Below, piece after piece: positions 1 through 20,736 of a DNA stretch of 22,200 nucleotides. The stretch comes from a virus. The translations under genes were made by a program, and so were the position numbers. Location of the stretch: positions 1 through 22,200 of the IMG/VR virus record IMGVR_UViG_3300047547_000147; one strand, given 5' to 3'. Position 1 is the first letter of the stretch; the number at the start of each line of letters is the position of its first letter. The notes beneath the pieces were generated by a model. It saw only the letters and a program-made list of their open reading frames with translations, did no database searches and was not told the origin of the DNA.

Positions 1-290
1 CTTTTATTGTATTCTTCAAAAGCGGTTTTATCCCCCGGCTCCGCTGTACGCATGACTTGCTGAAAATCGAGCGCTAGGTCCGCATTCGCTTTTGCCGTTT
101 TCGCCGTTATATCACTTAAGTTTTCTTGCTCTTCTCTTTGAGAAAGAATACTTCCAACTTGAGATACGGCTTGCCCCAAAGCTTGCAGTCCTTGCGCCGA
201 CGCCGCCCCGAATTGTGCAGGCGTCGCATAGTTTTTTTCCGACGGTCCTGGCGCCCTTACTTGCTGCCCGTACTCTCTTATAATTGGCAC
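1..290 (-). CDS. Internal virion protein, N-terminal fragment (partial, runs off window edge)
   Basis: This open frame enters from the left edge and is read leftward. It starts at a GTG (290-288) with an AGGTGA ribosome site just upstream that overlaps the stop of the preceding gene. The visible ~96 residues begin MPIIREYGQQVRAPGP. They continue with an Ala/Gln-rich helical stretch (ASAQGLQALGQAVSQVG) and a charged helix (QREEQENLSDI). This kind of start, directly after a small internal-protein gene and the tail nozzle gene, is usual for the large internal virion or ejected proteins of podoviruses (T7 gp15/gp16 position). Such proteins leave the capsid with the DNA and form a trans-envelope conduit. 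The function is inferred from position and N-terminal style; the catalytic part, if any, lies outside the window. It was overlooked by ATG-based calling because of the GTG start. Confidence 0.75.
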   Translation of the reverse strand, partial: MPIIREYGQQVRAPGPSEKNYATPAQFGAASAQGLQALGQAVSQVGSILSQREEQENLSDITAKTAKANADLALDFQQVMRTAEPGDKTAFEEYNK

Positions 291-299
291 AAAATCACC

Positions 300-740
300 T
301 TAATCCTTCATAAAGCCGCCGGCGCCCATAAGTAGCGTCGCGGCCCCTTGAAATTTTCCTGCTTTTTTTGCGTCCTTTGCCGAACGTCTAAACCCCTGCG
401 CTTGTCGTAAATAAGAGCTTCGCTCAAGCTCCCCTGCACGTCTAATATTTTGCGCATCTTTTTCCGCATTCGCTGCGTTATCCCTTAAAACTTCAAGTGG
501 CGAACCTTCAAGTTTAACCCCGCTTGCGGCGACTGCGGTCACGTTGCGAGCTTCTTCCCTTTTGAAAGAAAGTCGAAATTGTCGTTCATCCTCTACCGCA
601 CGCTCACGGGAAAGCCTGGCGTTTATTTCCGCTTCTCTCGCATTTGCTTTTGCTGCGCGAACATTCGCCCGCGTTTCTTCTTGCCCCCCGATAAAAGAAG
701 CAATCGTTCCTACTCCCATCAATAATGCTGGCAAAGCCAT
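300..740 (-). CDS. Small internal virion protein (T7 gp14-like position)
   Basis: This 146-residue protein has a short hydrophobic N terminus with small residues (MALPALLMGVGTIASFIGG). A long Ala/Arg/Glu-rich helix follows (about residues 20-125), and a Gly/Ala-rich tail (GAATLLMGAGGFMKD) ends the protein. This architecture, a glycine-rich membrane-active end plus a helical rod with no Cys, matches small podovirus internal core proteins that are ejected at infection and insert into the outer membrane. Translation starts at ATG with an AAGGGGG site. The gene sits 11 bases after the nozzle gene, and its stop overlaps the ribosome site of the next gene, so the three are one transcription unit. 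The family is inferred from architecture and order, not from a recognised motif. Confidence 0.65.
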   Translation of the reverse strand: MALPALLMGVGTIASFIGGQEETRANVRAAKANAREAEINARLSRERAVEDERQFRLSFKREEARNVTAVAASGVKLEGSPLEVLRDNAANAEKDAQNIRRAGELERSSYLRQAQGFRRSAKDAKKAGKFQGAATLLMGAGGFMKD

Positions 741-751
741 AATAATCCCCC

Positions 752-3274
752 TTACCTATCCTGCGTATGTAATTGCGGCATAATCGCAAGTACCATACTC
801 GGTAGCGGCTGATCTTGCTCAAAACAAAATTGATTCTCAAAATCATAATCCGCTTCTATAGTCTCTGATATTATTCCAGAAAACAAAGGCACCGCTCTGC
901 TTAACGCGTCCGACGCTTTTCTAAAAGTAAGCCTAGTTAAATCGCTAAAGCTCATTCCTATTTTCAACCCTAAAGACCTATGCAGTAAAATTCCTACTCT
1001 GTGCGTCCTTTGTGTTTTCCCTAACGCAGTCCCGTCCGCCGCGCCAACATTTAATCTTAACATTTTTCCACGGCTTAAATATCCAAGGCCTACTTGCACA
1101 GTAGTCGCAGGCGTAGCTAATGTTATGCTGCCAGACGCAACGGTTTTACTCGGCTGAACTGCGCCGTCCCCTAGTACGTCTACGGTCTGCCCCTCTAAAT
1201 GAGTGAGCCCCGTAATAGTAGATACATACTTCCTCGCATATCCGCCCGACACATACGCCGTGTCATAAGCCGACGTGTCAATGTTATTACCCTCTAAATC
1301 AGTTAAAGCAAAAGTATTAGCCGCAGCACTCGCTACGAGAAAACTTTCTCCGTTTAAATCCGAAGTTTCATCCTCCGAATCATTTAAAATTCCTAAAATA
1401 TCTGAAAGTAAAACCTTATCCCCATTACTAAATCCATGCGACGTACTTGTCACAACTGCGGGATTCGCCCTCGTAATCGAGGTTATCGTTTTAGGCGCGT
1501 CATATGTTAGTCCGCTATCTACAAAGAAAGCGTCTTTCTGCTCAATACTATCTTCAAACATTGGCGTCATGTATTCCACATATCTATTAACTGAACCGTC
1601 GATGTATCTTTTTACAATTAACCATAACTCGTAAGAAGTGCCAGTAGAGTTTGGAATGACTGCGACACTCTCAACTTCCGCGTCTGTTCCCGCCGCATCA
1701 CTTGCACCGCCTACTATGTGTCTATGCCATCCTACCTTAAACGATTCTACGTCTCTCTCGTAAGTAAGCCCTACTAATTGGCCGTCGTCTCTCACACACC
1801 ACAAAATAGGTTGTGGCTCTTTTTGCACAGCCATCTCAACTATTCCGCCTTCTGTTACGTGCTCTGCGAGCATGGTCATGTCAGAAGCTTTAAACCCGTC
1901 CGCATCAAAAAAATACATTAACTCTCTTATTTTTCTTCCAGCTTTTTGTAAAAACAAAATAGATTTTCCAAAGGCTACCGCTTGCACGTTAGCACTTCCA
2001 TACGACGTGCTTTTTTTAGCTGATATATTTGTAGGCGTAAGTGCTTCCCCGCTTGAAGACGGGCGAATAAGCCACTCGCCCCCTGCGGTTCCCGCGAACA
2101 AACCTTTTTCGTCTGAAAGCACCCATCTGACTACGTTCACGTCATTAGCGTTAAAGGTAAAACTTAGCGCCGACGTTGCAATCACGGTTCCGTCTGTCCC
2201 CGACGGCGCAAAGTTGTAATAATCCGATGTTACGCTGCCATCCATTCTTTGCGGATAATTCGTGGCGCCCGCTAAAAAAAGGCGGTCTTCGTGGAAAGTA
2301 ACAACTGCCGGATATCCCGTCGTCGCCGACCACACGCCTAGTCGCCAAAAAGTTTTAGCACTAGTATTGGTAAGCGTTGACTGAATATCTATCGTTATAC
2401 TTCCGTAATGCACAAAGCTTGCTACTCGCGCCCATCCCCACACTGAGCCTTCTCTCAAACGAATAAGTCTACCTACATCAGTTGAAACAAACACACCTGG
2501 GTGCGCTGTTCCGCCGGCGGTGTACGCATTCACAAAAGTGGACCCTTGTAAATCAAAAGTATTCGCTGTGATAACCGTAACAGTCCAAGAGCCATTCGCT
2601 TCCGTCGTCCCGCCTACAGATTCTATCCCGACACTTTGCCCCGTTGAAAATCCATGCGTAGCTGCCGTTATTCTTATTAATCCAGACCCGTTATTGGCGG
2701 CGCCCGTTATATTAATCGCAGTCCCCGATTTTAACGTAACTCCGCTTCCCGTCGCCGCTCCCGGCGTTAATGAATACGCAGTTGTGTTGGTCGGTAAATA
2801 AGGCCCGTCTGAAAAAGAAATAGCCGCCAATGTCCATGTAGTATGTCCGGTACGAGATAAAGTTCTCGGCGCGTAGCTTGGATGACATATGTATAAAACG
2901 TCAGCGCTTTGAGTAAATCTCAATTGAAAAAGGTCAGCCGCTAAATACGGACTGGCTACTTCATAAGGGCTTCCGCCACTTTCGATCTGTCCGTTATTTC
3001 TGTAAAACCTTATGTATTGGTCGCCGAATTCTAATATGTACGCTTGTGTAGTTGAAAACTCAAACGACATAAGCCTCGAAACCGAGCTACTTGTTTTCGT
3101 TTCCGCCACATACTTTGTGCCGGACCTTCTTACTAACCCGCCCTGTAAAGACGGAATGTAGTTTTCACACGTAGCTAGCGCCTGCTTATATCGGTCTAAC
3201 TCTACTCCACCGTATAGTAACGGACTAAACTCACCCGCACCGAAACTTGTTTGTATTGGTGAGACTTTAGGCAT
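752..3274 (-). CDS. Tail nozzle protein (T7 gp12 / tail tubular protein B-like) with two FCCH-like inserts
   Basis: This 840-residue protein begins MPKVSPIQTSFGAGEFSPLL and continues with ENYIPSLQGGLVRRSGTKYV, the characteristic opening of podovirus tail-tube/nozzle proteins. The nozzle forms the distal beta-propeller-rich part of the short tail, through which DNA leaves. The body is beta-rich and has the typical HEDRLFLAG and TAGGEWLI-type propeller segments (about residues 328-403). Two segments, about 198-257 (RITAATHGFSTGQSVGIESV) and 596-680 (SITRANPAVVTSTSHGFSNG), look like E1-FCCH-type beta domains, modules often inserted in phage tail proteins. The gene lies four bases after the adaptor gene, and its ATG is preceded by AAGGGA. 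Low-helix composition and position between adaptor and internal proteins support the call. Confidence 0.88.
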   Translation of the reverse strand: MPKVSPIQTSFGAGEFSPLLYGGVELDRYKQALATCENYIPSLQGGLVRRSGTKYVAETKTSSSVSRLMSFEFSTTQAYILEFGDQYIRFYRNNGQIESGGSPYEVASPYLAADLFQLRFTQSADVLYICHPSYAPRTLSRTGHTTWTLAAISFSDGPYLPTNTTAYSLTPGAATGSGVTLKSGTAINITGAANNGSGLIRITAATHGFSTGQSVGIESVGGTTEANGSWTVTVITANTFDLQGSTFVNAYTAGGTAHPGVFVSTDVGRLIRLREGSVWGWARVASFVHYGSITIDIQSTLTNTSAKTFWRLGVWSATTGYPAVVTFHEDRLFLAGATNYPQRMDGSVTSDYYNFAPSGTDGTVIATSALSFTFNANDVNVVRWVLSDEKGLFAGTAGGEWLIRPSSSGEALTPTNISAKKSTSYGSANVQAVAFGKSILFLQKAGRKIRELMYFFDADGFKASDMTMLAEHVTEGGIVEMAVQKEPQPILWCVRDDGQLVGLTYERDVESFKVGWHRHIVGGASDAAGTDAEVESVAVIPNSTGTSYELWLIVKRYIDGSVNRYVEYMTPMFEDSIEQKDAFFVDSGLTYDAPKTITSITRANPAVVTSTSHGFSNGDKVLLSDILGILNDSEDETSDLNGESFLVASAAANTFALTDLEGNNIDTSAYDTAYVSGGYARKYVSTITGLTHLEGQTVDVLGDGAVQPSKTVASGSITLATPATTVQVGLGYLSRGKMLRLNVGAADGTALGKTQRTHRVGILLHRSLGLKIGMSFSDLTRLTFRKASDALSRAVPLFSGIISETIEADYDFENQFCFEQDQPLPSMVLAIMPQLHTQDR

Positions 3275-3278
3275 TTAC

Positions 3279-3851
3279 TTAATCCCTTATTGTTATCCAT
3301 TCATCTTCGGGCGGACGTTCCGCCACTTTTTCAATGGCATTCGCTTTTTTAGCTTGTGCTAAAATTTCATCGTACATAGCTTTTGCGTCTGCTTTTTTAG
3401 AATTAGACTGCGTTATTTCTTCACATAATTCCATCGCGAGTTTCGAAGATAATAACTCCCTAAACAAAACATCCATTTCGTTAGGGTCTGTTACATCGTA
3501 AATATATCTAACGTCTAGCGGATCATCCCAATCCGTAATTATGTTCCGCCCCTCTATCTGCCAATCTAAATCATTGAAATTTACTTCCGGATCTGGAGAT
3601 AAAAGTCGGACGCAATCACTCGGCAAAGGAAAGCTGTTTTCCCTATTAAAAAGTGGCTCCGTCGTGCTTGCCGCTAATTGTGCCCTTTTTATCGCAAAAT
3701 TCCACGGGTGTTTTCTCAGTTCGGCCAACTTGACCGGCTCATACGCCAAATTTATCGACCTGGCATTTCGAGAATCTTCAGTCAAAGAAGTAATACTCTT
3801 AGCGCCTAAAAGTTGTAACGCTCTATTCGCAATTTCAACTTTACTCGCCAC
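3279..3851 (-). CDS. Tail adaptor protein (T7 gp11 / tail tubular protein A-like)
   Basis: This 190-residue protein opens with EIANRALQLLGAKSITSLTED and contains LRKHPWNFAIKRAQLA, FPLPSDCVRLL and LRELLSSKLAMELCEEIT-type segments. These are the standard landmarks of the gp11-like adaptor family: an N-terminal helical bundle around 'NxALxxLG', the 'hPWNFAxxR' motif, then a C-terminal helix pair. Twelve copies of such adaptors sit between portal and nozzle in short-tailed phages. The start is a GTG (3851-3849) preceded by GAGGTAAGG. The length is normal for the family. The gene directly precedes the nozzle gene in transcription order, as in T7-like and many other podoviruses. Confidence 0.9.
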   Translation of the reverse strand: MASKVEIANRALQLLGAKSITSLTEDSRNARSINLAYEPVKLAELRKHPWNFAIKRAQLAASTTEPLFNRENSFPLPSDCVRLLSPDPEVNFNDLDWQIEGRNIITDWDDPLDVRYIYDVTDPNEMDVLFRELLSSKLAMELCEEITQSNSKKADAKAMYDEILAQAKKANAIEKVAERPPEDEWITIRD

Positions 3852-3859
3852 GCCTTACC

Positions 3860-4144
3860 TCAATGTGCTGAATTTAAATATGCATACACCGCCGTTGCCG
3901 TGGCGATATTCGCTCGGTACTGCCCTTGCGGAAGCCATAACACTGCTGTCATTCCCGCTGCGGTCAAAGACCCTCCGGCTACATCTACCCAAGTAGACCC
4001 ATCCGGAAGCAAAACTTGTAGTTTTACTGTACCGCCGCCAAACGTAGCCGTCGCCGAAAACGTAGAAGGCCCGCCTTTATAAAGCTTGGCGCTTCCCGTA
4101 GCCGACGCATTTTCCACAAGATTAACTCTCTGTGCGTTAGCCAT
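3860..4144 (-). CDS. Small beta-rich virion-associated protein, unknown function
   Basis: This 94-residue product is made almost wholly of short beta-prone stretches (SAKLYKGGPSTFSATATFGGG, VKLQVLLPDGSTWVDVAGG, GQYRANIATATAVYAYL). It has no Cys and few charged residues. The layout (signal in replicate, quantity, uncertainty) resembles the small jelly-like proteins often found beside capsid and tail genes in phages, possibly decoration or head-completion proteins. It has a clear AAGGAGT site before its ATG and lies in the capsid-to-adaptor interval of the late operon. I do not recognise a named family; the structural role is inferred from composition and place only. Confidence 0.7.
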   Translation of the reverse strand: MANAQRVNLVENASATGSAKLYKGGPSTFSATATFGGGTVKLQVLLPDGSTWVDVAGGSLTAAGMTAVLWLPQGQYRANIATATAVYAYLNSAH

Positions 4145-4154
4145 CTAAGACTCC

Positions 4155-4379
4155 TTATGCTGGCGGCCAATTGCCTTTTATAATATGATTTTTAATTTTA
4201 TCAATCGCGTCGATTACTTCTTGTTTCTCTACCCCGCGCGTGCTCCCACGCCAATTGACTGCCGTAGTCGCTAACTCAACGGTCAATTCAACTTTATCAG
4301 AGGACACCGCTGCGCCAGCCGCTTCTGTGATAGAAAACTCACCTTCGCCGATAGAAATACCATAACGTCTAGTTGCCAT
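4155..4379 (-). CDS. Small hypothetical protein in the head module
   Basis: This 74-residue product begins MATRRYGISIGEGEFSITEAAG and carries Val/Thr strands (VELTVELATTAVNW). It ends in a helix (KQEVIDAIDKIKNHIIKGNWPPA). The ATG has a strong AAGGAG site seven bases upstream. It stands between a hairpin terminator (4402-4423) and the next small virion gene, so it is probably the first gene expressed from any transcript passing that hairpin. No family is recognised with certainty. Similar short 'ITEAAGAAVSSDKVELTVE' proteins accompany head genes in other phages, so a minor virion or head-joining role is plausible but unproven. Confidence 0.68.
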   Translation of the reverse strand: MATRRYGISIGEGEFSITEAAGAAVSSDKVELTVELATTAVNWRGSTRGVEKQEVIDAIDKIKNHIIKGNWPPA

Positions 4380-4397
4380 CTATAACTCCTTAAAATT

Positions 4398-4423
4398 TTA
4401 AAGGCGGGATTTTCGCCCCGCCT
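4398..4423 (-). terminator. Hairpin terminator after the capsid gene pair
   Basis: A perfect 7-bp G+C-rich stem (4402-4408 with 4417-4423) encloses an 8-base loop. On the minus strand it is followed by a TTTAAAATTTT stretch. It begins eight bases past the stop of the 166-residue gene. The broken T-tract suggests partial termination, which would lower tail-gene expression relative to capsid. Read on the plus strand it would also precede AAAGTTTTT, but no plus-strand gene ends here. Confidence 0.6.
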
Positions 4424-4430
4424 AAAGTTT

Positions 4431-4931
4431 TTAGATTGCGTATATTACTTGCAAAGATAGCGTTCCGCCGCCGACTGTCGCTTGTGTAAGCGTCAATACA
4501 ACGTCGTAATCAATCTTTGGGTCCGCTGAAAGACCAAGTGCTTCCCACAATGGTTTTTCAATGTCTTCCACCCCATAAACGCCTGACTCAAAAGTAACAT
4601 CGGAATTTTTAAGCGCCGTTGTTAAAGCTTGAGCACTCGCGAAATGGTCCGCATCTACAACCGCGCTACCGTTTTTAGTAGTTTGGTAAATCCCAATATC
4701 TGCCGTGCCGGTTGTGCCGACACTATCGCAAGATAAAAGAACTTGCATGACGCGTGCGTTAGACGGAAGCGAACACATATAATACTTCGATCCGATATCG
4801 TCAGCCGCCCCCGCTTCTGCGATACCCGCAGAAACTTGCATTGCGCCCTTCGAAATTCTCGCGTTGTTCAATACGCGAGGCGAAGCATCTCTATTTGTAA
4901 TCTGTGTAGAGTACACCGATACTGTAGCCAT
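4431..4931 (-). CDS. Probable minor head / decoration protein downstream of capsid
   Basis: This 166-residue protein has alternating beta segments (SKYYMCSLPSNARVMQVLL, TADIGIYQTTKNGSAVVDAD, YDVVLTLTQATVGGGTLSLQ) and a central helix (FASAQALTTALKN). The pattern 'phase-V-L-S-C-D..GTTGTADIGIYQ' followed by 'VVDADHFASAQ' is one I recognise as typical of unnamed proteins encoded immediately after the major capsid gene in many phages. Those are usually regarded as decoration or head-stabilising proteins. It is eleven bases from the capsid gene, has an AAGGGGG site before ATG, and is followed by a terminator, so it is probably made at capsid-like levels. The exact role is inferred. Confidence 0.72.
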   Translation of the reverse strand: MATVSVYSTQITNRDASPRVLNNARISKGAMQVSAGIAEAGAADDIGSKYYMCSLPSNARVMQVLLSCDSVGTTGTADIGIYQTTKNGSAVVDADHFASAQALTTALKNSDVTFESGVYGVEDIEKPLWEALGLSADPKIDYDVVLTLTQATVGGGTLSLQVIYAI

Positions 4932-4942
4932 TAGTTACCCCC

Positions 4943-5827
4943 TTATTCCGCACACTTAATTTCAACAACTTTTTCTTCCTCAAGTCGAGTAGCCCCAACC
5001 GTCATGTAAACATACGACTGCCAAGGTAATCCCTTGATATCTTTTCGTTGTGAAATATCAGTAGTTATATCATTCCATAAACCTAGATGCATACCTGATT
5101 TAGCAAATACCGGCACGCGTCTGTAACTTGACCCGTCGGTGTCAAGACGTTCGCAATGAACGAATTGAATGCCTAAGAACGACTTAAGTTTACCGTCAAC
5201 TAGTACGGGCTTGTCGTTAAAATCTAGGCTGATTACTTGCGCTTCCGCAAGTAGGTTGTCTTCTTGTTTTGCCGTAACTACGCAAGTAATTGGCTCCGTA
5301 TCTAGATCAACTTCAGCCGCACGTAACAACCGACGCGCTTCGCGAAGTTTTGCTACCGTTAGACCTGTGTTGCCGCTCGCCCCGTGGTTAACAGCTACTT
5401 GTTGCCCCGATGGGAAAGTCGTACTAGTAGAACCTGTCTTACCAGTTTTTGACGTTCCAAAAAAAGCATCAATGATAACGTCATCCATTTTTCGGCCCGC
5501 TGCATGTACGGCGTTTTGCACGTAAATAGACTGTGGGTCTGTCAAAAGACGAAGTTTATCGAAATTATCAATCATCTGTGGAAGGTCGAAATCAAGTGGC
5601 AAAACCCATCTACGATCCGTGTCCGCATCTACGCGGCCCATCGCTTCGAAACGGCCTGTTACTTCTTGCATTTCTACTTTGTCAATCTGATCGACCGGAG
5701 ATGCTTGCTCCCCGATGTACGAACCCGAGCTAACTAAACCACGAAGTTTCGAACCTTTTTGTTGTAACAAAAGTTCAATGTTCGTCGCGTATTGCTGGGC
5801 ATAGTGATTTGGTAAATTTAAAGACAT
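4943..5827 (-). CDS. Major capsid protein
   Basis: This 294-residue protein follows the scaffold-like gene and precedes the head and tail genes, the place of the shell protein. Landmarks include an N-terminal helix (YAQQYATNIELLLQQKGSKLRG), DADTDRRWVLPLDFDLPQMIDNFDKLRL, a helix-plus-loop (QNAVHAAGRKMDDVIIDAFFG), LREARRLLRAAEVD, and a C-terminal strand segment (PWQSYVYMTVGATRLEEEKVVEIKCAE). These agree with HK97-fold podovirus capsid proteins of similar length (about 290-340 residues). The ATG is preceded by AGGGGG at good distance. The 200 bases upstream form a structured RNA (separate entry), which may matter for expression of this very abundant product. No cleaved delta domain is evident, consistent with a separate scaffold. 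Confidence 0.88.
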   Translation of the reverse strand: MSLNLPNHYAQQYATNIELLLQQKGSKLRGLVSSGSYIGEQASPVDQIDKVEMQEVTGRFEAMGRVDADTDRRWVLPLDFDLPQMIDNFDKLRLLTDPQSIYVQNAVHAAGRKMDDVIIDAFFGTSKTGKTGSTSTTFPSGQQVAVNHGASGNTGLTVAKLREARRLLRAAEVDLDTEPITCVVTAKQEDNLLAEAQVISLDFNDKPVLVDGKLKSFLGIQFVHCERLDTDGSSYRRVPVFAKSGMHLGLWNDITTDISQRKDIKGLPWQSYVYMTVGATRLEEEKVVEIKCAE

Positions 5828-5873
5828 TTTGTGCCCCCTAAAAAGTGTTTATCTTAAAAACTGTACTCTTATC

Positions 5874-6027
5874 GAAGGGCTTGTCTGCGAAGCAGGGCCT
5901 AACTTCATGCCGAGGGAAAGCCCCTCGGTCAGGCTACCGACTTTATCCGGCGGTCAAAATCGGCCCACAATAGAATTGCGGGTTATCGACTATATGGCTA
6001 AAGCATAACCTTAGCCACGCAATAGTC
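5874..6027 (-). ncRNA. Highly structured intergenic RNA upstream of the capsid gene
   Basis: Between the scaffold-like stop and the capsid start the sequence is almost entirely self-complementary. In minus-strand order: stem 6022-6027/5988-5993 continuing into 6011-6017/5995-6001; its loop 6005-6010 is complementary to 5981-5986 (pseudoknot). Then come stems 5975-5982/5964-5971, 5956-5963/5937-5944 and 5922-5928/5910-5916. A final three-part stem is 5903-5906/5874-5877, 5897-5899/5878-5880 and 5892-5895/5885-5888. Two positions (5967/5979 and 5941/5959) form G-U pairs on the minus strand but A-C clashes on the plus strand, so the RNA belongs to the late transcript. I cannot assign it to a known family. 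It could be a cis-acting leader, a processing element or a stable small RNA. Confidence 0.72.
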
Positions 6028-6925
6028 AATCGGAAGCTGCGGCCATTTCATGTAGTCTAGACATTTCGGAACGCGCTTTAACGTCGCCTTTTATGTATCT
6101 GCTTGTAAATTCTGGATCAGACTTTAGTGCCTGAATTCTGGATTTAGCTTGCGAAGGCGTTAGTATAACCCCGTCCCCGAAACCTTGCCCGCTTTGACCG
6201 CTAACAAAACCATGCTCGCCTATACGCGAACCGATATTGTGCATGAACTTCATTACCCCATCGAAACCCATAGCGCCTTCTAATGCTTTGAGCGCGCTAT
6301 CTGGTAATCCGAAAGACCTGTACGCGGCTTGCGCTCTTGCAATGTTTTGCTGATACGCGGCGCCCCATTCTTTTTGCAAAGCCTTGGTTTGCTCTTGTAC
6401 TTCTATCGCGTATTTTTCTTGCTCATGGACCGTCTGTACTGAATCAAATTCTTTTAGCTGTTCTATTAAACTCTGCGCTTGAGTTGTCGAAAGATTAAGT
6501 TGATGAAATGTATTTTTCGCCCAGTCCGCAAAAGTTTTGTCCGCGCCTTCATTTACAATAAATCCATATCCTTCCGGCGTAGGCGGTTTTCCTAACTTAG
6601 AATAAACGTCATTCCACTCCGGCGCATCCGCACTATCCGGCAATTTTAAAAGTCTTTCCTGCGGAACCCCTCTTAATTTTTCTAAATTAACGTAACTCTC
6701 TAAAAGCATTTTAGGATCTTGAAAGCCTTTGTTAGTTACGTAGTCTTTAAGCCCCGGATCAAAGCTATCTGTCCAGTGCGCCGCCACTGGTTTACTCTCT
6801 TGCGCGCCTTTAACCCCGGCGCCGGAAGCTCCCTCTACTACGGCACCCGCCGCGCCCGCTTGCCCTGATACTTCGGCATTTCCTCCGCTAGCGCCCGCTG
6901 ATACCGCCCCCGCTGCTTCACTCAT
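6026..6925 (-). CDS. Capsid scaffold-like assembly protein
   Basis: This 299-residue acidic protein has a low-complexity Ala/Gly/Glu N terminus (residues 1-45). A conserved-looking block follows (DSFDPGLKDYVTNKGFQDPK, LLESYVNLEKLRGVPQERL, KLPDSADAPEW, YSKLGKPPTPEGYGF). The rest is mostly helical (LIEQLKEFDSVQTVHEQEKY, AAYRSFGLPDSALKALEGAM) and ends in a small basic helix-rich tail. The 'lRGvPxexLLkLP' and 'GKPxTPEGYgf' strings are typical of podovirus scaffold/capsid-assembly proteins, which act inside the procapsid and exit before packaging. Its ATG overlaps the preceding gene's end by eight bases (ATGAGTGA), implying coupled translation. It lies directly before the capsid gene, as expected for a scaffold. 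Confidence 0.82.
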   Translation of the reverse strand: MSEAAGAVSAGASGGNAEVSGQAGAAGAVVEGASGAGVKGAQESKPVAAHWTDSFDPGLKDYVTNKGFQDPKMLLESYVNLEKLRGVPQERLLKLPDSADAPEWNDVYSKLGKPPTPEGYGFIVNEGADKTFADWAKNTFHQLNLSTTQAQSLIEQLKEFDSVQTVHEQEKYAIEVQEQTKALQKEWGAAYQQNIARAQAAYRSFGLPDSALKALEGAMGFDGVMKFMHNIGSRIGEHGFVSGQSGQGFGDGVILTPSQAKSRIQALKSDPEFTSRYIKGDVKARSEMSRLHEMAAASD

Positions 6926-7187
6926 AAGTGTCCTTTCTGCTTAACTCCCATAACTCGTCTGGAGTTAAATTTAAATGTTTTTGTATACGTAGCCAAACTT
7001 CTCTGCGCCCTTCAAGCACTGCATGTAATCTTGCATCTTGCTTAAAAGTAGTTTCATTCGCCCTGCAAAATTTAGCTAAATCTTTAAGTACAATCTGTGT
7101 GTCCGCGTCTATGCCCCCGAATAAAGTGGCGTAAGCTTTTTTCCTAGAAAATAAAATGTTTTTTGCTTTTGCTAAAATATCGTCCAT
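6918..7187 (-). CDS. Bbp19-like small phage protein
   Basis: This 89-residue protein has the core LKDLAKFCRANETTFKQDAR followed by HAVLEGRREVWLRIQKHLNL. I recognise this as the signature of the Bbp19-like family, named after a Bordetella phage BPP-1 gene product and usually found between portal and scaffold genes in podoviruses. The molecular function is unknown. Its conserved position suggests a role in capsid assembly or portal incorporation. The protein is helical, with an Arg/Glu-rich centre. Translation of the next gene is coupled through an eight-base overlap. Its own ATG lacks an obvious Shine-Dalgarno, so it may rely on readthrough from the portal gene fourteen bases upstream. Confidence 0.8.
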   Translation of the reverse strand: MDDILAKAKNILFSRKKAYATLFGGIDADTQIVLKDLAKFCRANETTFKQDARLHAVLEGRREVWLRIQKHLNLTPDELWELSRKDTYE

Positions 7188-7201
7188 TTATAAAAGGAAG
7201 C

Positions 7202-8815
7202 TTATTTCTTTTGCGCCTTTTGTAAAGCTGCAACGCTAGGCGCAGCTTGAATCAGTTGTTGCTCTTGCGCCTGCTCTTCTCTGCCCTGCCGTATTGCTTG
7301 TATTTGTTCTAAACTATTTCGCCAACGGACAGGCACCGCATTAATATCAGATATGTCCGGAATTATAGTGTCCCAATTAAAATGATCTAATGGCGCCATA
7401 TTTCCCGTAACATTAACTACATTAAGCGCAGTCTCTACCGTTCGCATCAATCCGGAAGCTTCTTCCGCTCTTTGCGCTCTAGATAACGGTGAGTCATATT
7501 CTACTTTAAATTGCGCGCCAGCTTCTTTTAATATTTCTGGCATCGGCGGCAAAAGACCTTGCTGAGATAAAACATCTATCTCCCGCTCAATTTGAGGGCC
7601 TAGTCTTTCCGATTGCTGCCTGCCAAAAGTAGGCGCCAACAATATTCCCTTTTCCCGTGTCCGCTCCATTACTTCAGTCGCCGTCATTTGCGGAGTTTCA
7701 AGTAATATCTGAAATAGTGTGACTAAGAAATTATCCTTAATGACATTTCTTTCTTCGTCCATCATATCTTTGCCCGCAGCTATGTTGCCCACAGGTAACG
7801 CGTGCACTAAAGGACGCCCGTCTTTACTCACCCCGCCCGCATTAGCCGCTCCCGGTTTTAAAGAAAAAGTATCCAATATGCCGTCATCATGAACCAAAAG
7901 AACTGGATCTACGGCCCTATGCCCTTGCTTTAAATAAGTTTTCTTTTGTTCGTTTAAAGTCTTAATCGCAGGCAAAACATCCATTGCCGGACTTCGCCCG
8001 TAAACTTCGTTAGGACTCTGCTCATACCTTGACGGCGTGTAAGGAAAAGTGTTGTACCCACCTTCTTCGATGTGCATTTTCCCTTGAAGCGAAATGTAAT
8101 GCGACTCATATGCCATGCCTTTAAAATCTGCTCTGCTCGGGTCTATATCTAATCGAGGCCCCACGTAATGAATAAACTTGTATTCGCGCCCCGGAAAAGT
8201 CGCCGCCGCTTCTCTTATCATCACGGGACATTTTTCTTTAAATTTTTGAGTAGCTTGCTTCGCAGTTAAAGTAAAACACCTTAAAACTTCGTCAATTATC
8301 CCTTGATGATTTTCTATAAAAAACATCTCGCCTAAATGACAAGTCTTGTATCTAAGCCCGGGCTCAGACCCCGCCGCATCTACGTACATAGCTGCCGATC
8401 CAAACGCCCCTAATGATTTATTAAACATCATGTTTTGCGAAGCGAAATTTGCGATAGTTGAATATCTATATTTAAACAAAAGCCGCGTTACGTCTTCATA
8501 ATAAACTCTGACCGCGCGGTCTCTATTTAACTCATCTACGCTTGACATAACTCGGTGCCATGTCTGATTTCTTGGCGTTAAATACGAATCTAAAATAGCT
8601 GCAAATCGATTTAGCGCCGTAGCCGCCGTAGAATCAAAAACTTCCTGATTTCTCTTAGACCCCGGAGTCGTTTCCCTATTTGTGAAATCAGCCGTGGCCG
8701 GATAAATTCTGTCCTTAATTTCCTGCCAATGCGACTCCCAAGTTCCGCGCATACCGGACTCTTGCTCGTAAAGCCTGCAAATTTCAAAAGCTTTTTCTTC
8801 TAAAGGACTATTCAT
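7202..8815 (-). CDS. Portal protein (head-to-tail connecting protein family)
   Basis: This 537-residue protein forms the dodecameric ring at one capsid vertex for DNA entry and exit. Family landmarks include WESHWQEIKDRIYPATADFT and RNQEVFDSTAATALNRFAAILDSYLTPRN near the N terminus. LGAFGSAAMYVDA, YGRSPAMDVLPAIKTLNEQKKTYLKQG and the LLETPQMTATEVMERTREKG stem region (about residues 390-410) follow. The C-terminal segment is Gln-rich (REEQAQEQQLIQAAPSVAAL). This arrangement and length match the head-tail connector portal family of T7-like and related podoviruses. The portal gene lies six bases after a small gene and is followed by the Bbp19-like gene, a conserved podovirus order. Confidence 0.93.
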   Translation of the reverse strand: MNSPLEEKAFEICRLYEQESGMRGTWESHWQEIKDRIYPATADFTNRETTPGSKRNQEVFDSTAATALNRFAAILDSYLTPRNQTWHRVMSSVDELNRDRAVRVYYEDVTRLLFKYRYSTIANFASQNMMFNKSLGAFGSAAMYVDAAGSEPGLRYKTCHLGEMFFIENHQGIIDEVLRCFTLTAKQATQKFKEKCPVMIREAAATFPGREYKFIHYVGPRLDIDPSRADFKGMAYESHYISLQGKMHIEEGGYNTFPYTPSRYEQSPNEVYGRSPAMDVLPAIKTLNEQKKTYLKQGHRAVDPVLLVHDDGILDTFSLKPGAANAGGVSKDGRPLVHALPVGNIAAGKDMMDEERNVIKDNFLVTLFQILLETPQMTATEVMERTREKGILLAPTFGRQQSERLGPQIEREIDVLSQQGLLPPMPEILKEAGAQFKVEYDSPLSRAQRAEEASGLMRTVETALNVVNVTGNMAPLDHFNWDTIIPDISDINAVPVRWRNSLEQIQAIRQGREEQAQEQQLIQAAPSVAALQKAQKK

Positions 8816-8821
8816 TTTTAA

Positions 8822-9256
8822 TTAAAATCCCATCAAGGCTTTTTTAGAAATAGAATCCTCATCGCCGTCCAGTCCCATCGCACTCGTTAGAAGCGTTTTG
8901 GATTTACTCCCTACTGCCATGCGCTCCGCTTCGATTCTTTGATTCTCGGCAAAAGCTTGTTTTTTAGACTGTTCAATGCTTGCGGCTTTCTCGGACGCCA
9001 TACGTCTTTCTTCGCCTTGCTGGATACCTTCTTGGATTCGTTTATCTCGGCCAGAGGCTTTGTCTATTAGGCCGCCGCTAAAGTCGTTAACTGCCTTTGA
9101 CGCTTTGTCCCCAAATTCAACTATCCCTTTTTGGCCAGTCGCCCGCGCTATTTCGCGTACGGGTTTAAGGGTAAAGTCCCCTACCCCCTGTACAAGTTCT
9201 TTGTACGGGTTCCCCCCTTTAGAAAAAGCCTTTCTCACTCGACTAAAAAGACCCAC
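8822..9256 (-). CDS. Hypothetical protein between terminase and portal
   Basis: This 144-residue basic protein has GTG start (9256-9254) with a strong GGGGAGGG site. It contains a Gly/Lys N terminus (MGLFSRVRKAFSKGGNPYKE), VREIARATGQKGIVEFGDKA and NDFSGGLIDKASG. A long charged helix of coiled-coil character follows (about residues 70-118, EGIQQGEERRMASEKAASIE). It ends in a short acidic tail (GLDGDEDSISKKALMGF). No catalytic motif or Cys is seen. Proteins of this kind, with a glycine-rich head and helical rod, occur near portal genes in several phages and may be minor virion proteins. I do not recognise a named family, so function is left open. Confidence 0.68.
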   Translation of the reverse strand: MGLFSRVRKAFSKGGNPYKELVQGVGDFTLKPVREIARATGQKGIVEFGDKASKAVNDFSGGLIDKASGRDKRIQEGIQQGEERRMASEKAASIEQSKKQAFAENQRIEAERMAVGSKSKTLLTSAMGLDGDEDSISKKALMGF

Positions 9257-9337
9257 GCTAACCCTCCCCGGAAAGAAAATGTAAAAAACAAAAACCTAAT
9301 CGGATACTCTTAAACTTTAAATTAGATAAAACAAATA

Positions 9338-10885
9338 TCAACCAAAAATGTCGTAATTGGTGCCTTTAACACTTTGCCCGTGCCTATTTTCTTTATTACG
9401 GCTTACCCTAATGTCGCGTCTAGCTACTTTTACCGCAAAAGTTACCGCAAGTGCGTCCGCGCAGTCCGGACTCGCAACCCCGCGTTTTTTCATTTTCTCC
9501 TTTGCTTCAAGCTTAATTCTTTCAAATTTATCAAACCCATACTCCGGCCCCAAGATATCGTCTTTCAAATCTGAATCATTAGGAATACATCCGCCGGGTA
9601 GCCACTCCCGCATTTTAGCCCAAAGCTCAGTCCTTAAATCTGCCCACTCTTCGCCTTCGGCTTTCGACCCAAACCATATCTCATTTACCTTATACCCCAA
9701 CTCCCGAAGTCTATCTATAACTCCCGTCCCGTTTCCCGCATCTACACAAATAGCGTCCGGTCTATACTCTTCAATGTACGCCATGCATTCGTTGGCCACG
9801 GCCATATTATCGAGACCTTTAAGTTTAATTGGTAAAATACTTCTCGCATCGCGCCCCCTTCTAAAATAAATAACAGTCGTGTCGTCCCCAAACCTAGCAA
9901 CGTCCACCCCCATTATGAGGCCTGCAAAATTATCCTTTTCTGTCTCTCTGTCAACTGCGCCCTCCACAACTTCTCTTGAAATAAATTGCTTATCACCTTG
10001 GTTAGGAAACAGCCCTTTTACTTCAATGCGCGCCTCGTCCGAATCTTCCCCGTGTTTCTCTACGATTTGTCCAAGTAGTTTTTTATCTGTCCCTTCTACT
10101 TTTCTAGAATCTAAATTGCGCCTCTGCCAATATTCCCGCATCCGGTGAAAACATTCGTAAAATTCCCCCGTGTTACGACGTGGGTTTGAAAAACAAAACC
10201 AGTACCTATGAAGTACAGGCTCCGTAAAGAACCCCTCCGATACCGTCCAAATAGGTTTTGGAATACCCGACGCCTCGTCGAATATTAAAAGAACTCCGTT
10301 ATGATTATGAACCCCGGCGAACGCATCCGGATTTTCTTCACTCCATAACTGCGCCTGTGCATAATAATATCCCGTATCAATCTTTAACTGATTCTTAAGC
10401 GCCGTCTCAAACCACGGGTTGGGCCTTAACGTTAAAGCCGTTCTCTCAAACCAATGGCTATTAATCATTAACGTATGCCACTTCCCCAACTCCGCCCACG
10501 TTCTACTCTGAAGCTGCGGCCCCGTATTCGCAGTCGTAATCGCGGTACTACCTAACACGCAGCTAAGCATCCATAAATTTAGCCACGCCGTTAGCGCCGA
10601 CTTCCCCACTCCACGGCCCGATGCGGTAGCACTCTGATATATCTCCGGGTCCAGCCCTTTTTTAATTCTCTCTTTGTTTTTTATAATGTGGTCTTTGATT
10701 CTAGTTAACTCTTCTTTTTGCCACGCCCTCGGCCCGTCCTTAAACCTCTCAAGCGGCGCGCCCTCTTTCCCCCACGGGAAAACAAACATCACAAACGCTA
10801 GCGGATCTTCCGCAATCTTCGGCGACCATAACTCTGTCATTAATTTCTGATCATCCTGCGGAGAATACGGACTCGAAACAGACAC
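9338..10885 (-). CDS. Terminase large subunit (packaging ATPase and nuclease)
   Basis: The enzyme pumps phage DNA into the prohead and cuts it. With the GTG start at 10885 it has 515 residues. It shows Walker A GRGVGKSA (about 90-97), Walker B LLIFDEA (199-205) with catalytic Glu, a coupling-type CFSNP segment (232-236), and RNaseH-like nuclease acidic residues in MGVDVARFGDD (Asp 328), ICVDAGNGTG (Asp 382) and SPDCADALA (Asp 474/477). I chose GTG 10885 because it overlaps the previous stop as TAGTG and has a GGGAG site six bases upstream. The 37-residue in-frame extension to 10996 is Cys-rich, lies wholly over the neighbouring gene and has no family counterpart. The gene precedes the portal, as usual. 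Confidence 0.95.
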   Translation of the reverse strand: MSVSSPYSPQDDQKLMTELWSPKIAEDPLAFVMFVFPWGKEGAPLERFKDGPRAWQKEELTRIKDHIIKNKERIKKGLDPEIYQSATASGRGVGKSALTAWLNLWMLSCVLGSTAITTANTGPQLQSRTWAELGKWHTLMINSHWFERTALTLRPNPWFETALKNQLKIDTGYYYAQAQLWSEENPDAFAGVHNHNGVLLIFDEASGIPKPIWTVSEGFFTEPVLHRYWFCFSNPRRNTGEFYECFHRMREYWQRRNLDSRKVEGTDKKLLGQIVEKHGEDSDEARIEVKGLFPNQGDKQFISREVVEGAVDRETEKDNFAGLIMGVDVARFGDDTTVIYFRRGRDARSILPIKLKGLDNMAVANECMAYIEEYRPDAICVDAGNGTGVIDRLRELGYKVNEIWFGSKAEGEEWADLRTELWAKMREWLPGGCIPNDSDLKDDILGPEYGFDKFERIKLEAKEKMKKRGVASPDCADALAVTFAVKVARRDIRVSRNKENRHGQSVKGTNYDIFG

Positions 10886-11133
10886 TAAAAACTCCCGGAG
10901 CCTGGACGAATAATGCGCGAATCTTCCGCATCCGGGCAAACCTTCTTCGCCAAAGCATGGAGTGCATACGCAAGCATCTGCCCCATTGAACCGCACTTCT
11001 TTGTCGAAATATAATCCTCCACGTTACCCGCCGCATACGCCTTCACAAAACTACCAGACGGGAACTTTACATCTTCAAATTCTTTTCTTCTTACCGCCCC
11101 ATACACAATAACTATCTCGTCACCTTTTTTCAT
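10885..11133 (-). CDS. Small hypothetical protein overlapping terminase start
   Basis: The product is 82 residues from ATG 11133, which overlaps the methyltransferase stop as ATGA and is preceded by GGGGGAT. An in-frame GTG at 11145 would add four residues. The sequence starts MKKGDEIVIVYGAVRRKEFE and has strands (VKFPSGSFVKAYAAGNVEDYI). A Cys-containing helical part follows (QMLAYALHALAKKVCPDAED) and ends GSGSF. Stop and terminase start share a base (TAGTG), so it is translationally coupled on both sides. I do not recognise a family. Coupling to both neighbours argues that it is real and made in amounts similar to the terminase. Confidence 0.7.
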   Translation of the reverse strand: MKKGDEIVIVYGAVRRKEFEDVKFPSGSFVKAYAAGNVEDYISTKKCGSMGQMLAYALHALAKKVCPDAEDSRIIRPGSGSF

Positions 11134-11687
11134 TCTATCCCCCACGCTGGCTTAACTATCTTTTCTAAAACCAAAACAATCGAATAATTCCCCTTAGAAT
11201 GTAATTCTCTCCCAAGGCTGTAATCAAACTTATAATCAAAATCCATTAAACACCGCACCCTATAGCTGTTCGGCTCTAGCGATTCTTCCACTTCCCGCAT
11301 CAAACTCGCCGGCGTATAAAATCGCTTGTGATCTTTGTTGTACACACTCGGGATGCATTCTTTTTTCTCGTACAAAAATTTGTGCGGTAGTATTAAAACC
11401 AAGTGCCCTCGCGTTTTAAGAATTCGAAACCACTCCGATATACTTAACTTATAATCGTCTATGTGCTCCAGGCAATGCGAGGAAAAAACACACTCAAAAC
11501 TTTCGTTCTTAAACGGCATGTGCGACGGGGCGAACCCCCTTGTATCCTTGTCATATCCAAGAAAATCTAGTATTGGCGTACTTCCTCTGCCGCCGTATCC
11601 AATATCAATTCCGTTTTTTAAAACGCTCTTGATGTTAAACGGAACTTCTGAATCTAAATAATTTAAGAATTTATGCGACTCATTCAC
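11130..11687 (-). CDS. Class I SAM-dependent methyltransferase
   Basis: This 185-residue protein has a SAM-binding motif I (GIDIGYGGRG, residues 26-35). An acidic or polar strand-2 region follows (FLGYDKDTRG), then the post-motif FECVFSSHCLEHIDD (64-78) typical of methyltransferases of the Methyltransf_11/23 group. Motif GHLVLILP (94-101) and a downstream DHKRFYTPASLMREVEE helix complete the fold. The substrate cannot be read from the sequence. The HCLEH variant is common in small-molecule and glycan methyltransferases, not in DNA methylases (no NPPY/DPPY). It starts at GTG 11687 with AAAGGA upstream and overlaps the glycosyltransferase by eight bases, suggesting that the two act on a common product. 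Confidence 0.82.
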   Translation of the reverse strand: MNESHKFLNYLDSEVPFNIKSVLKNGIDIGYGGRGSTPILDFLGYDKDTRGFAPSHMPFKNESFECVFSSHCLEHIDDYKLSISEWFRILKTRGHLVLILPHKFLYEKKECIPSVYNKDHKRFYTPASLMREVEESLEPNSYRVRCLMDFDYKFDYSLGRELHSKGNYSIVLVLEKIVKPAWGIE

Positions 11688-12708
11688 TCGAAGATTCCTT
11701 TATCGCTAAATCAATCGTAGAAATCCAACTCTCTGAATTTAATTCTCTTATACACGCGGGCGTGTTTTCTTGGTACATACACGTCGTAAAACTATGCCCG
11801 CCTTTTTCACTAAAATGAAATCTCATCTTCTCTTGGCAAAACAGGCATTTTACTTTTTCTTTATCTCCGTAAAGCTCATAAGTAATTCCGTGCGGCCTAG
11901 GGATTCTTCTCTGTTTTGGCCCGGCGATTGTATACCCATACAAAATAGTGGCATCTGTCATTCCCGCTAAATGAAGTAGCCCATTGTCAATCCCCAGCAC
12001 CATTTCCGCTTGCTGCATAATCTTAGCCGCCACTAATAAACTCGTCCGGTTTGTTAAGTCCAACCCCTTAGATAAATCCGCCCCCTCCGGCAAACTTATC
12101 TCCCGCTTCCCCATTTGCGTTTTACCTAAATAAACCGGAACCCGCCCAATACTTAAAAGATAATCCGAAACTTCGTTAATAACTTTTCCGGGCATTTTTC
12201 TTGTTAACGCTTCCGCATACGGAGTTATGACCACGTACCGACTCCCACTTAATTCTCCGGGCACCACTCCAACTTCGGCGTCTGATAAATCAAGCTGCAA
12301 ATACTCTTTATCCTTTTCGTCGTCGGGGATAATTCCGTTAAATAGCAAAAAACCTAAATCGACTAAAGACATCATCGTCGCATTCGGATAAAGCATTTGC
12401 TCGCGCAGAGGTACGCAGTCTAATAATCTATCGGGTATCGTGTTCTTGTGTATTCTCCAGTGCGGATACTGTCTCATCACATTGGTCGCTATCTCTACTA
12501 AGTATTCCGGAATAATTAAATGCCCCCTGACCCACGGGTAATTCTCCGCCACATACCTAATCGCAGGAAGCCACGCTATTGCATCTCCTAAAGCGCAGGT
12601 AGTCCAGCCGGGGAGTGAAAATTTAAATACCACTTCTATCGGCTGGATCATAGACCCGTTACGGTAATTGGGATTTGTTACTAAAATCCGCCCACTTTTG
12701 TTTTCCAC
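11680..12708 (-). CDS. GT9 / heptosyltransferase-like glycosyltransferase
   Basis: The protein has GT-B glycosyltransferase features: an N-terminal LPGWTTCALGDAIAWLPAIR segment, then a C-terminal Rossmann domain. That domain carries ITPYAEALTRKMPGKVINEV, VPVYLGK, LTNRTSLLVAAKIMQQAEMV and the family signature GIDNGLLHLAG, corresponding to the D(S/N)GxxHLA motif that binds nucleotide-sugar in ADP-heptose:LPS heptosyltransferases. A Cys cluster (CLFC about residues 288-291, then TTC and PAC) near the C terminus resembles the metal-type cluster of some family members. The start is uncertain. GTG 12708 avoids overlap with the zinc-ribbon gene, while an in-frame GTG at 12756 would add 16 residues. 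Target (host envelope sugar, virion protein or small molecule) is unknown. Confidence 0.8.
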   Translation of the reverse strand: MENKSGRILVTNPNYRNGSMIQPIEVVFKFSLPGWTTCALGDAIAWLPAIRYVAENYPWVRGHLIIPEYLVEIATNVMRQYPHWRIHKNTIPDRLLDCVPLREQMLYPNATMMSLVDLGFLLFNGIIPDDEKDKEYLQLDLSDAEVGVVPGELSGSRYVVITPYAEALTRKMPGKVINEVSDYLLSIGRVPVYLGKTQMGKREISLPEGADLSKGLDLTNRTSLLVAAKIMQQAEMVLGIDNGLLHLAGMTDATILYGYTIAGPKQRRIPRPHGITYELYGDKEKVKCLFCQEKMRFHFSEKGGHSFTTCMYQENTPACIRELNSESWISTIDLAIKESSSE

Positions 12709-12712
12709 TAAA

Positions 12713-12976
12713 TTACATTTCGTCGTGAATAGCTTCGAAGTCCTCGGCACCCGCACGCACTAGATCCGATACTTGTTTTCTCAATTTAATAATTTCATCC
12801 TTAAGACGAATGTTTTCTTCTTGCGCTTGCTTTAAAAGAAGATCAGTTCGTTTTAATCCGTCAAAACCCGGAACCCATACGTGTCTACACTTAGAACAAT
12901 AACGCTTACTAGAGGCGTCTTCCGCCTTAGCGAAAATCTCGCTCGTACATTTCGGACACGCTTCTTTTTTTGCCAC
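12713..12976 (-). CDS. Zinc-ribbon / coiled-coil small protein
   Basis: This 87-residue product has a four-cysteine zinc ribbon (CPKC at 7-10 and CSKC at 27-30) followed by RHVWVPGF. A heptad-like charged helix comes next (about 43-75, LLLKQAQEENIRLKDEIIKL). It starts at GTG 12976 with GGAGGTTAGG upstream and is the first gene of the accessory cluster downstream of a 361-base non-coding region. Zinc ribbon plus coiled coil suggests a nucleic-acid or protein-binding oligomer, possibly a transcription-related or scaffold factor. Specific function is unknown. The stop lies four bases from the first coupled start candidate of the glycosyltransferase. Confidence 0.75.
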   Translation of the reverse strand: MAKKEACPKCTSEIFAKAEDASSKRYCSKCRHVWVPGFDGLKRTDLLLKQAQEENIRLKDEIIKLRKQVSDLVRAGAEDFEAIHDEM

Positions 12977-13337
12977 CCTAACCTCCGCTGCTAAAGGGGC
13001 GACCCTCGCAAAAAGGCCAGCCCCCGAGTAAAAACTTTAACTAAAACGTAATCGTTCTTTGCGATACGTGCAATATTTTCAGAAAAATAAAAAAATTTTT
13101 AACGGAAATATAAAATTGGACGCGCGTAGGTACCGTTGAAAACAGATTTCAAACGAATTTCCTCCCCCACCCCCGTCCACACCCCCCGGGTCTAAGGCTA
13201 AAGCCCAACACTTTGTCTAGGTCTAGAGGCATTTTTTTAACGGCATTCCTTAGTTATATCACGCATTTAGATGTTGTTTTTGAAATCTGTGTAACATAAT
13301 GCAACTTATCGGATGAAAGTCTAGTAACCCATTGATA
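12977..13337 (-). other. Non-coding region between small terminase gene and accessory cluster
   Basis: This 361-base stretch has no convincing ORF on either strand. It holds a 12-bp perfect inverted repeat (separate entry) and a G-rich minus-strand tract (13161-13187: runs of 6, 2, 5, 5 and 2 G). A very A/T-rich segment follows (13079-13112). Location beside the small terminase gene makes a packaging-initiation or late-promoter role possible; neither is demonstrated. No good promoter hexamer pair or terminator is evident. Confidence 0.5.
13142..13290. repeat. 12-bp inverted repeat flanking a G-rich tract
   Basis: ACAGATTTCAAA at 13142-13153 recurs as its exact reverse complement at 13279-13290, bracketing 125 bases. 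The interior contains the C-rich (plus) / G-rich (minus) run at 13161-13187. The arms could be paired binding sites for a dimeric or looping protein, or the stem of a large hairpin. Confidence 0.6.
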
Positions 13338-20708: not shown

Positions 20709-20736
20709 GATTTTTAGGATATGCGATAGCAAAGGT

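Follow-up and report, generated by a model that had tools for sequence, protein, structure and literature searches.

A structured RNA with a repeated bulged module upstream of the capsid gene in diverse short-tailed phages

We describe a structured RNA family that, judging from comparative sequence evidence, is under structural selection and is encoded between the scaffold-like and capsid genes. It precedes the capsid gene in many diverse short-tailed phages (podophages), is new as far as the databases and open-licence literature that we searched extend, and belongs by kind with the cis-acting phage leader RNAs. This leader RNA probably controls the expression strength of capsid and tail-fibre genes. 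The window, which is the whole 22,200-nt stretch of DNA that was analysed, comprises positions 1-22,200 of IMG/VR virus record IMGVR_UViG_3300047547_000147, and a covariance-model match places the whole conserved leader RNA (120 nt) at 5871-5990 on its minus strand. On the same strand, the major capsid protein gene occupies 4943-5827 (PF19821 Phage_capsid_2, E 1.5e-79), and the gene at 6026-6925, regarded as scaffold-like or capsid-assembly from its position between portal and capsid, ends within the promoter discussed below. The scaffold-like gene (6925-6026) has no Pfam match, and its PHROG matches are families of unknown function and 'protease'; the window's portal matches PF12236, the head-tail connector family. 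A 39.4 kb IMG/VR record (L001/L041) encodes a capsid protein 100% identical to that of the window, and its leader letters are the same by eye. Elsewhere in the window, a SNF2-type helicase gene lies on the plus strand at 20644-22098 (PF00176, E 2.9e-29; PF00271).

Read from 5′ to 3′ on the minus strand, the leader RNA consists of module M1, a linker UGAC, hairpin C, a variable hairpin D, and module M2 inside helix E, giving four hairpins of which the first and last contain the same bulged module. In M1 (5959-5990), where both helices covary, an outer helix GUCG (5990-5987)/CGAU (5962-5959) is followed by the bulge AUAA (5986-5983) and an 8-bp inner helix CCCGCAAU (5982-5975)/AUUGUGGG (5971-5964), the first 3 pairs of which are in the model, with C 5963 left unpaired. 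The linker UGAC (5956-5953) and hairpin C, GCCG (5951-5948)-GAUAAAGU-CGGU (5939-5936), together span 5936-5956 and are supported by covariation; the linker is present in 50 of 74 non-redundant sequences, and the hairpin C loop is most often GAAAGA. Hairpin D (5910-5928) reads CCGAGGG (5928-5922)-GCUUU-CCCUCGG (5916-5910) in the window and varies in length and loop between relatives. M2 inside helix E (5874-5906), again supported by covariation, has the helices GGC (5899-5897)/GCC (5880-5878) and CUGC (5895-5892)/GCAG (5888-5885), the unpaired C 5896, and the bulge ACAA (5884-5881). The enclosing helix E is GAAG (5906-5903)/CUUC (5877-5874) in the window and occurs across phages as GAAG/CUUC, GGAU/AUCC, GAAA/UUUC, or GAGG/CCUC. 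In the window clade, M1 and M2 also contain, by eye, the letters of a possible GGGCC/GGCCC switch, which are absent from other clades.

The two outer hairpins present one element in permuted form, as M1 runs helix-RYAA-helix-loop-helix-C-helix and M2 runs helix-C-helix-loop-helix-RYAA-helix. The shared module is therefore two GC helices flanking an RYAA bulge that faces a C, and in the window the M1-C-D-M2 fold, its bulges of RYAA form, precedes a capsid gene of the PF19821 type. Among 74 non-redundant sequences, the M1 bulge is ACAA in 21, AUAA in 20, GGAA, GUAA, or GCAA in 16, and something else in 17 (two of them empty), and the M2 bulge is ACAA in 41, AUAA in 22, and something else in 11 (two empty). 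The base facing the bulge is C in 70 of the 74 for M1 and likewise for M2. Departures from the AA ending tend to occur together: nine sequences of alignment A6 have a bulge that does not end in AA, and in seven of these M1 and M2 both deviate (four ACAC/ACAC, two ACUA/ACUA, one AUUA/ACUA), the deviation being confined to a single module in the remaining two (L255, L197). One further A6 sequence has CCAA in both modules. The co-occurrence of non-AA bulges has a Fisher p of 2.9e-8, which is only indicative because the rows are partly related, and the second bulge position shows no such coupling between the modules (C/C 30, U/C 18, U/U 10, others). Sharing of the bulge letters could stem from a contact between M1 and M2 instead of from an outside factor.

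Relatives were gathered via capsid tblastn, DNA searches, and two pattern scans of viral contigs. A pattern for the 3′ module returned 38 stretches (some near-duplicates), of which 35 precede a capsid-like frame, one (L033) precedes a tail-fibre-like gene, and 2 are unrelated; all six stretches returned by the second pattern precede a capsid-like frame. A pattern scan of genome_contigs gave at least 118 stretches, and since among the matches listed only L076 precedes a capsid-like frame, no prophage set was obtained. For a set of loci chosen by protein rather than by RNA, the 21-sequence capsid alignment A1 served as query; at least 600 stretches matched, 592 of them encoding a relative, and the best 80 of the 592 were kept (L190-L269). 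Covariance model R1, built from 7 close relatives (A2) that are all absent from these 80 loci, matches 51 of the best 80 of 592 at E ≤ 1 and 43 at E ≤ 0.01, with one match per locus, always in capsid sense and always upstream of the capsid gene. The figure of 51 in 80 is not an unbiased prevalence, as most A1 capsids come from known RNA carriers and at least three loci (L199, L213, L217) are also contigs found by RNA pattern. Model R2, built from the matches of R1 (training set A3, from L190-L269), matches 59 of the best 80 of 592 at E ≤ 0.01, all in capsid sense and most of them in its training set; three of the 21 loci without an R2 match at this threshold have 40 nt or less upstream. The distance from the RNA end to the capsid start, computed for 50 of the 59 R2 matches, is 27-70 nt, with a median of 35; L267, which has a partial R1 match ~170 nt before its capsid match, was excluded from the distance count. 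The window RNA scores 101.3 bits with R1, to whose training set the window belongs, and 63.7 bits (E 2.8e-12) with R2, whose training set A3 lacks the window. R3, a third model with the window in its training set, scores 69.7 bits on L001, the letters of which are identical to those of the window here.

The initial annotation had proposed a structured RNA between the scaffold and capsid genes, and both folding and covariation bear this out. Over 5860-6040, the minus strand folds at -69.8 kcal/mol against a shuffle mean of -52.2 kcal/mol (z -4.41), with 0 of 200 shuffles as good, and the plus strand gives a weaker signal (z -2.20, 3 of 200 shuffles as good). Pair statistics used all 91 sequences of alignment A5, that is, the R2 matches at E ≤ 0.1 in 97 sources. 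With helix E added, 92.8% of 2152 pair cells are standard and two-sided changes occur at 24 of 25 pairs. The covariation score is 0.580 compared with 0.156 in shuffled alignments, none of 500 reaching 0.580, and with 0.029-0.077 when the partners are slid. Single pairs take up to six standard types; pair 3-82, for example, is GC in 51, CG in 29, AU in 5, UA in 3, UG in 1, and unpaired in 0. By helix, 90.7% and 97.4% of cells are paired in M1 helices 1 (4 pairs) and 2 (3 pairs), with two-sided changes at every pair; 97.6% in hairpin C, with two-sided changes at 4 of 4 pairs; 90.6% over 4 pairs of hairpin D; 86.5% and 83.6% in helix E; and 99.6% and 91.4% in the two M2 helices. A filter on length and 85% identity reduces the 91 rows to 74, or to 72 under the stricter length used for mutual information. 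After background correction, the 14 top-ranked pairs by mutual information in these 72 rows are all model pairs, in an alignment fitted to the model. Among the best pairs beyond the model, the largely paired ones are 1-84, which extends M1, and 182-274 and 183-268, which belong to helix E. Fitting A5 and A6 to models biases these statistics toward structure; the slid-partner controls and the performance of R1 on loci that it was not trained on serve as checks. G-U exceeds A-C in the paired columns (92 vs 45 in 91 sequences), which supports the capsid-sense strand.

These homologues also decide among the features first drawn from the window's letters. A lack of covarying pairs, one of two outcomes named in advance as speaking against the RNA, is excluded, and the proposal that it was selected on the capsid-sense transcript gains from both the covariation and the excess of G-U. 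Two of the predicted elements, the 7-bp GC helix (5928-5922 with 5916-5910) and the three-part terminal stem (5906-5874), are conserved by covariation, the right end at 5874 being exact. Of the two abutting 8-bp helices, the first (5982-5975/5971-5964) covaries and the second is dropped, as the 4-bp hairpin C (5951-5948/5939-5936) covaries in its place. The pseudoknot between 6005-6010 and 5981-5986 is rejected, since the complement is not kept among clade members: it is 6/6 only in the window among 9 close relatives and 5/6 in four. The compound stem at the 5′ side (~5990-6027) lies outside the conserved RNA 5990-5871 and overlaps the promoter-like TTGACT-16-TATGCT at 6029-6002; hairpins at the same position in several relatives indicate that the palindrome there is real. 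A reading of the RNA as a terminator, discounted from the outset, is likewise rejected by a terminator scan, which finds no minus-strand terminator-like site between 5871 and 5990.

The sigma70-like promoter TTGACT-16-TATGCT (6002-6029, minus strand) was located by sequence scan, and its position recurs in relatives; a transcript from it would be expected to start near 5995. Scanned over 1-13000, the window has no excess of promoter-like sites (15 vs 18.5 in shuffles). Among the 72 rows with enough upstream DNA, on which the upstream analyses are based, 39 stretches have a promoter score of at least 9 against 11.8 expected from shuffles, and at a score of at least 6 real and shuffled stretches hardly differ (64 of 72 vs 60.9). 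Of these 64 stretches, 33 have a -10 whose end falls 0-19 nt upstream of the RNA, with ~15 expected, and in other relatives the promoter-like site sits further upstream. Around the -10 hexamer of the window lies a palindrome, TGGCTAA...TTAGCCA (5995-6017, minus strand). Similar hairpins occur in L039, L060, L055, and L065, and the arms of the -10 palindromes differ among the window, these four, and G002 and G024-G026 (the G records by eye). Such a palindrome is a candidate operator or a possible site for a phage activator or antiterminator. The upstream reading frame stops within the first 36 nt of the RNA, inside M1, in 21 of 72, some of which are chance frames. Terminator-like sites appear in 7 of 72 non-redundant upstream stretches, two of them doubtful by eye, and in one clade an intrinsic terminator lies between promoter and RNA. 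In L219, L221, L230, L236, L239, L241, and L242, a TTGCNN-17-TACTAT-type site is followed by a ~60-nt leader, an intrinsic terminator, and then the RNA, and the letters of the terminator stems vary with pairing kept. The promoter-terminator-RNA order of this clade resembles the Q-type late control of lambda at pR′-tR′.

One lineage carries the RNA twice per genome. The record of L033 (G002) has two copies, with R2 E-values of 1.3e-7 and 9.0e-7. One copy sits in the gap that separates the scaffold-like gene from the capsid gene (PF19821, E 5.5e-38). The other has a virion structural gene (phrog_684, E 4e-128) on one side and a tail gene (phrog_1640, E 2.4e-10; phrog_6518 tail fibre) on the other. 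All six loci of this lineage, namely that of L033's record and those of relatives of its capsid, have an RNA match before the capsid gene. Whole records of the lineage were searched further for G024, G025, and G026, with the L285 and L286 records left out, and each of the three has a second copy (R3, E 5.0e-9 to 8.7e-8) preceding a large frame that matches the phrog_1640 tail protein. R3 was trained on three capsid copies and the G002 tail copy, and the tail copies of G024-G026 are outside its training. Each copy in G002 and G024-G026 has a TTGACG- or TTGACGT-type promoter-like site, and most have the -10 palindrome (by eye). Counting both copies, each of G024-G026 has four bulges ending in UA, and the four of G002 end in AA. 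The G002 tail copy is 0.74-0.76 identical to the other tail copies, compared with 0.64-0.71 between a tail copy and the capsid copy of its own genome, suggesting that the duplication may predate the split of the lineage; capsid copies are not discriminating, with identities of 0.69-0.71 vs 0.64-0.71. If the duplication does predate the split, the change between AA and UA bulge ends would have occurred at both copies. Copies on the tail-fibre side of four phages weaken the earlier suggestions that the element is capsid-specific, that it is packaged, or that the capsid protein alone exerts autogenous control through it. A search for relatives with the tail-fibre protein returned its own record only. 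Weak and probably chance R3 matches include G025 7450-7536 (E 0.006, in a reading frame) and four at E 0.13-0.58. The tail-fibre-like gene behind the second copy of L290 (G024) encodes a C-terminal GDSL lipase/acylhydrolase domain (PF13472, E 1.3e-12).

Transcription of these phages likely falls to the host polymerase, because a T7-type RNA polymerase (PF00940) was found in 0 of 34 phage records, several of which may be incomplete and one of which is 9.9 kb; T7 itself, the positive control, matches. The phage single-subunit RNA polymerase that marks a T7-type late leader was thus not found in these records. In whole records, R2 matches 22 of 34 (E ≤ 1) and R3 matches 24 of 33, partly other records, and since W03 and W04 are matched by R2 as loci and not as whole records, whole-record searching loses AT-rich members. 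Matches before the capsid gene extend to cultured Pelagibacter phages, with EXVC029P, HTVC100P, and HTVC204P found by R2 and EXVC029P and HTVC203P by R3. At E ≤ 10 in 18 sources, R2 matches L041, L033, and the pelagiphages L019, L028, and L021, and in 37 sources the pelagiphage matches of R3 are L019 and L018, with L019 and L028 in R3's training set; the two models therefore disagree on pelagiphages. HTVC010P (L016) is matched by neither R2 nor R3, though M1 is visible by eye.

We lean toward the view that the RNA acts in cis as the 5′ leader of late virion mRNAs, and that a putative trans-acting factor binds it and raises the output of the next gene. A sigma70-type promoter read by host RNA polymerase, or an upstream polycistronic transcript, would yield an mRNA starting with or containing the ~100-120-nt RNA, with the next gene's start codon ~35 nt downstream. 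This RNA would fold as four hairpins, the outer two presenting the bulged module in permuted order, so that a single putative factor, whether encoded by the phage or part of a host machine, could occupy the RNA at two sites, one per module. Binding would make the virion-protein mRNA more productive, most likely via 5′-end protection or helped translation. We infer both the factor and the step that it affects (mRNA stability, translation, or polymerase processivity). The proximity to the start codon (27-70 nt), together with retention of the RNA where the upstream frame enters it, favours action on the mRNA through stability or translation. A leader is made less secure by a promoter that is not universal and hardly separates real from shuffled stretches at low cut-offs, by upstream frames that end inside the RNA in some phages, and by the 21 of 80 capsid loci without an R2 match at E ≤ 0.01. 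A simple strong leader is further weakened by the one clade with an intrinsic terminator between promoter and RNA.

A nearby promoter and the presence of two copies in one genome would also fit put- or nut-like action on the polymerase, in which the emerging transcript, by itself or together with a phage protein, binds RNA polymerase and makes it resistant to pausing and termination through the remaining late genes. We regard this as rather unlikely, even though many phages have the RNA immediately after a promoter-like site and no phage RNA polymerase was found in 34 records. The nut/boxB elements of lambda are short RNA modules found at two operons of a single phage; they vary from one related phage to the next and combine a small hairpin loop with boxA, whereas here a bulge lies between two GC helices, twice per RNA, and we know of no N-like partner for it. 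As described in the portion of PMC9378689 considered here, the putRNA of HK022, a lambdoid phage, is ~70 nt with two stem-loops, lies in early genes as putL and putR near promoters of two transcription units, and antiterminates via the beta′ zinc-binding domain of RNA polymerase. The RNA described here shares with it the position near promoters and, in one genome, the two copies in two transcription units (PMC9378689), and differs in having four hairpins over ~100-120 nt, in serving late virion genes, and in lying near the start codon. The two stem-loops within ~70 nt of a putRNA are not seen, put being compared by that paper's description and not by a put model. This four-hairpin fold thus speaks against put-like action, as do the position 27-70 nt from the capsid start at 50 loci, which antitermination would not need, and the terminator that in one clade precedes the RNA and is out of its reach.

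Three other readings appear weaker than action on the polymerase. Translational control, in which a putative phage structural or regulatory protein would bind both modules and turn the translation of capsid and tail-fibre mRNA down or up, is improbable in our judgement: it would account for the repeated module and for bulges that change together within the RNA and in both copies of the two-copy lineage, but no conserved model helix covers the capsid ribosome site, which falls beyond the conserved RNA. Very little probability attaches to a self-cleaving ribozyme or an endonuclease processing site that would release a capsid-only mRNA. The conserved unpaired letters (RYAA, C, UGAC, GAAAG) and a location between genes with very different product demand are what such a site might show. 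However, the hairpins stand in series with neither a multibranch core nor a pseudoknot conserved, model pairs take all 14 top places for covariation (in a model-fitted alignment), and no Rfam ribozyme family matches. A structural or packaged RNA of the pRNA kind is hardly credible, given second copies before a tail-fibre-like gene and upstream reading frames that end inside the RNA in some phages, despite its place next to the capsid gene in a phage whose portal is of the head-tail connector family.

The absence of a known class, noted at the start, holds up in Rfam 15, where 0 matches in the window reach the gathering threshold. At E ≤ 10 over 5700-6200, none lies on the minus strand and one lies on the plus strand, with 11.3 bits against a threshold of 34, and at E ≤ 1 the 14 loci of relatives give 2 sub-threshold matches, neither over the RNA. 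No known class of self-cleaving ribozyme in Rfam matches the window, or the RNA in the 14 relatives' loci. Mu-gpT-DE and other phage-associated motifs are also structured RNAs near a phage head gene, and Rfam gave no match of this type to the window RNA or over the RNA in the 14 relatives' loci. A survey of the open-licence literature, judged by titles and abstract openings, found no description of the leader RNA; in the excerpts considered, PMC9004378 concerns a glutamine riboswitch at phage tmRNA, distinct from the leader RNA, and PMC12753301 concerns transcriptomes of other pelagiphage groups.

The two genomic sites of the RNA invite a comparison with T7. In T7, separate late promoters, phi10 and phi17, precede the capsid and tail-fibre genes, and gene 10 has a structured 5′ leader; the two sites of the leader RNA correspond to the phi10 and phi17 positions. 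Unlike the phages here, for which none was seen in 34 records, T7 has its own RNA polymerase, and R3 finds no match in T7. It is tempting to speculate, and we put this forward only tentatively, that a new phage RNA class and a dedicated partner reading the duplicated RYAA-bulge module turn on the late virion genes of phages that lack a polymerase of their own. Such an RNA counterpart of phi10/phi17 control would stand before the capsid gene, in one lineage also before the tail-fibre gene, and would be present in cultured marine pelagiphages. A structured RNA absent from the databases searched and attached to the capsid gene of a large, diverse podophage group bears on how polymerase-less phages reach much higher capsid output. 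The module, its bulge, and the second copies offer precise targets for mutations and reporters, and with matches in cultured Pelagibacter phages, the leader RNA could be looked for in infection transcriptomes.

Several loci depart from the usual arrangement. In L010 (~2150-2320) and L011 (~2810-2960), successive bulged modules (GGCCCC..GGACAAGGCC) replace the usual fold before the capsid gene, as seen by eye. L185 and L186 have an extra M1-C-like unit upstream, in tandem with the full RNA, and that of L186 is matched by R2 at 7593-7676. In L265 and L266, apparently only an M2-like module is left upstream of the capsid gene (by eye), which hints at a minimal functional unit.
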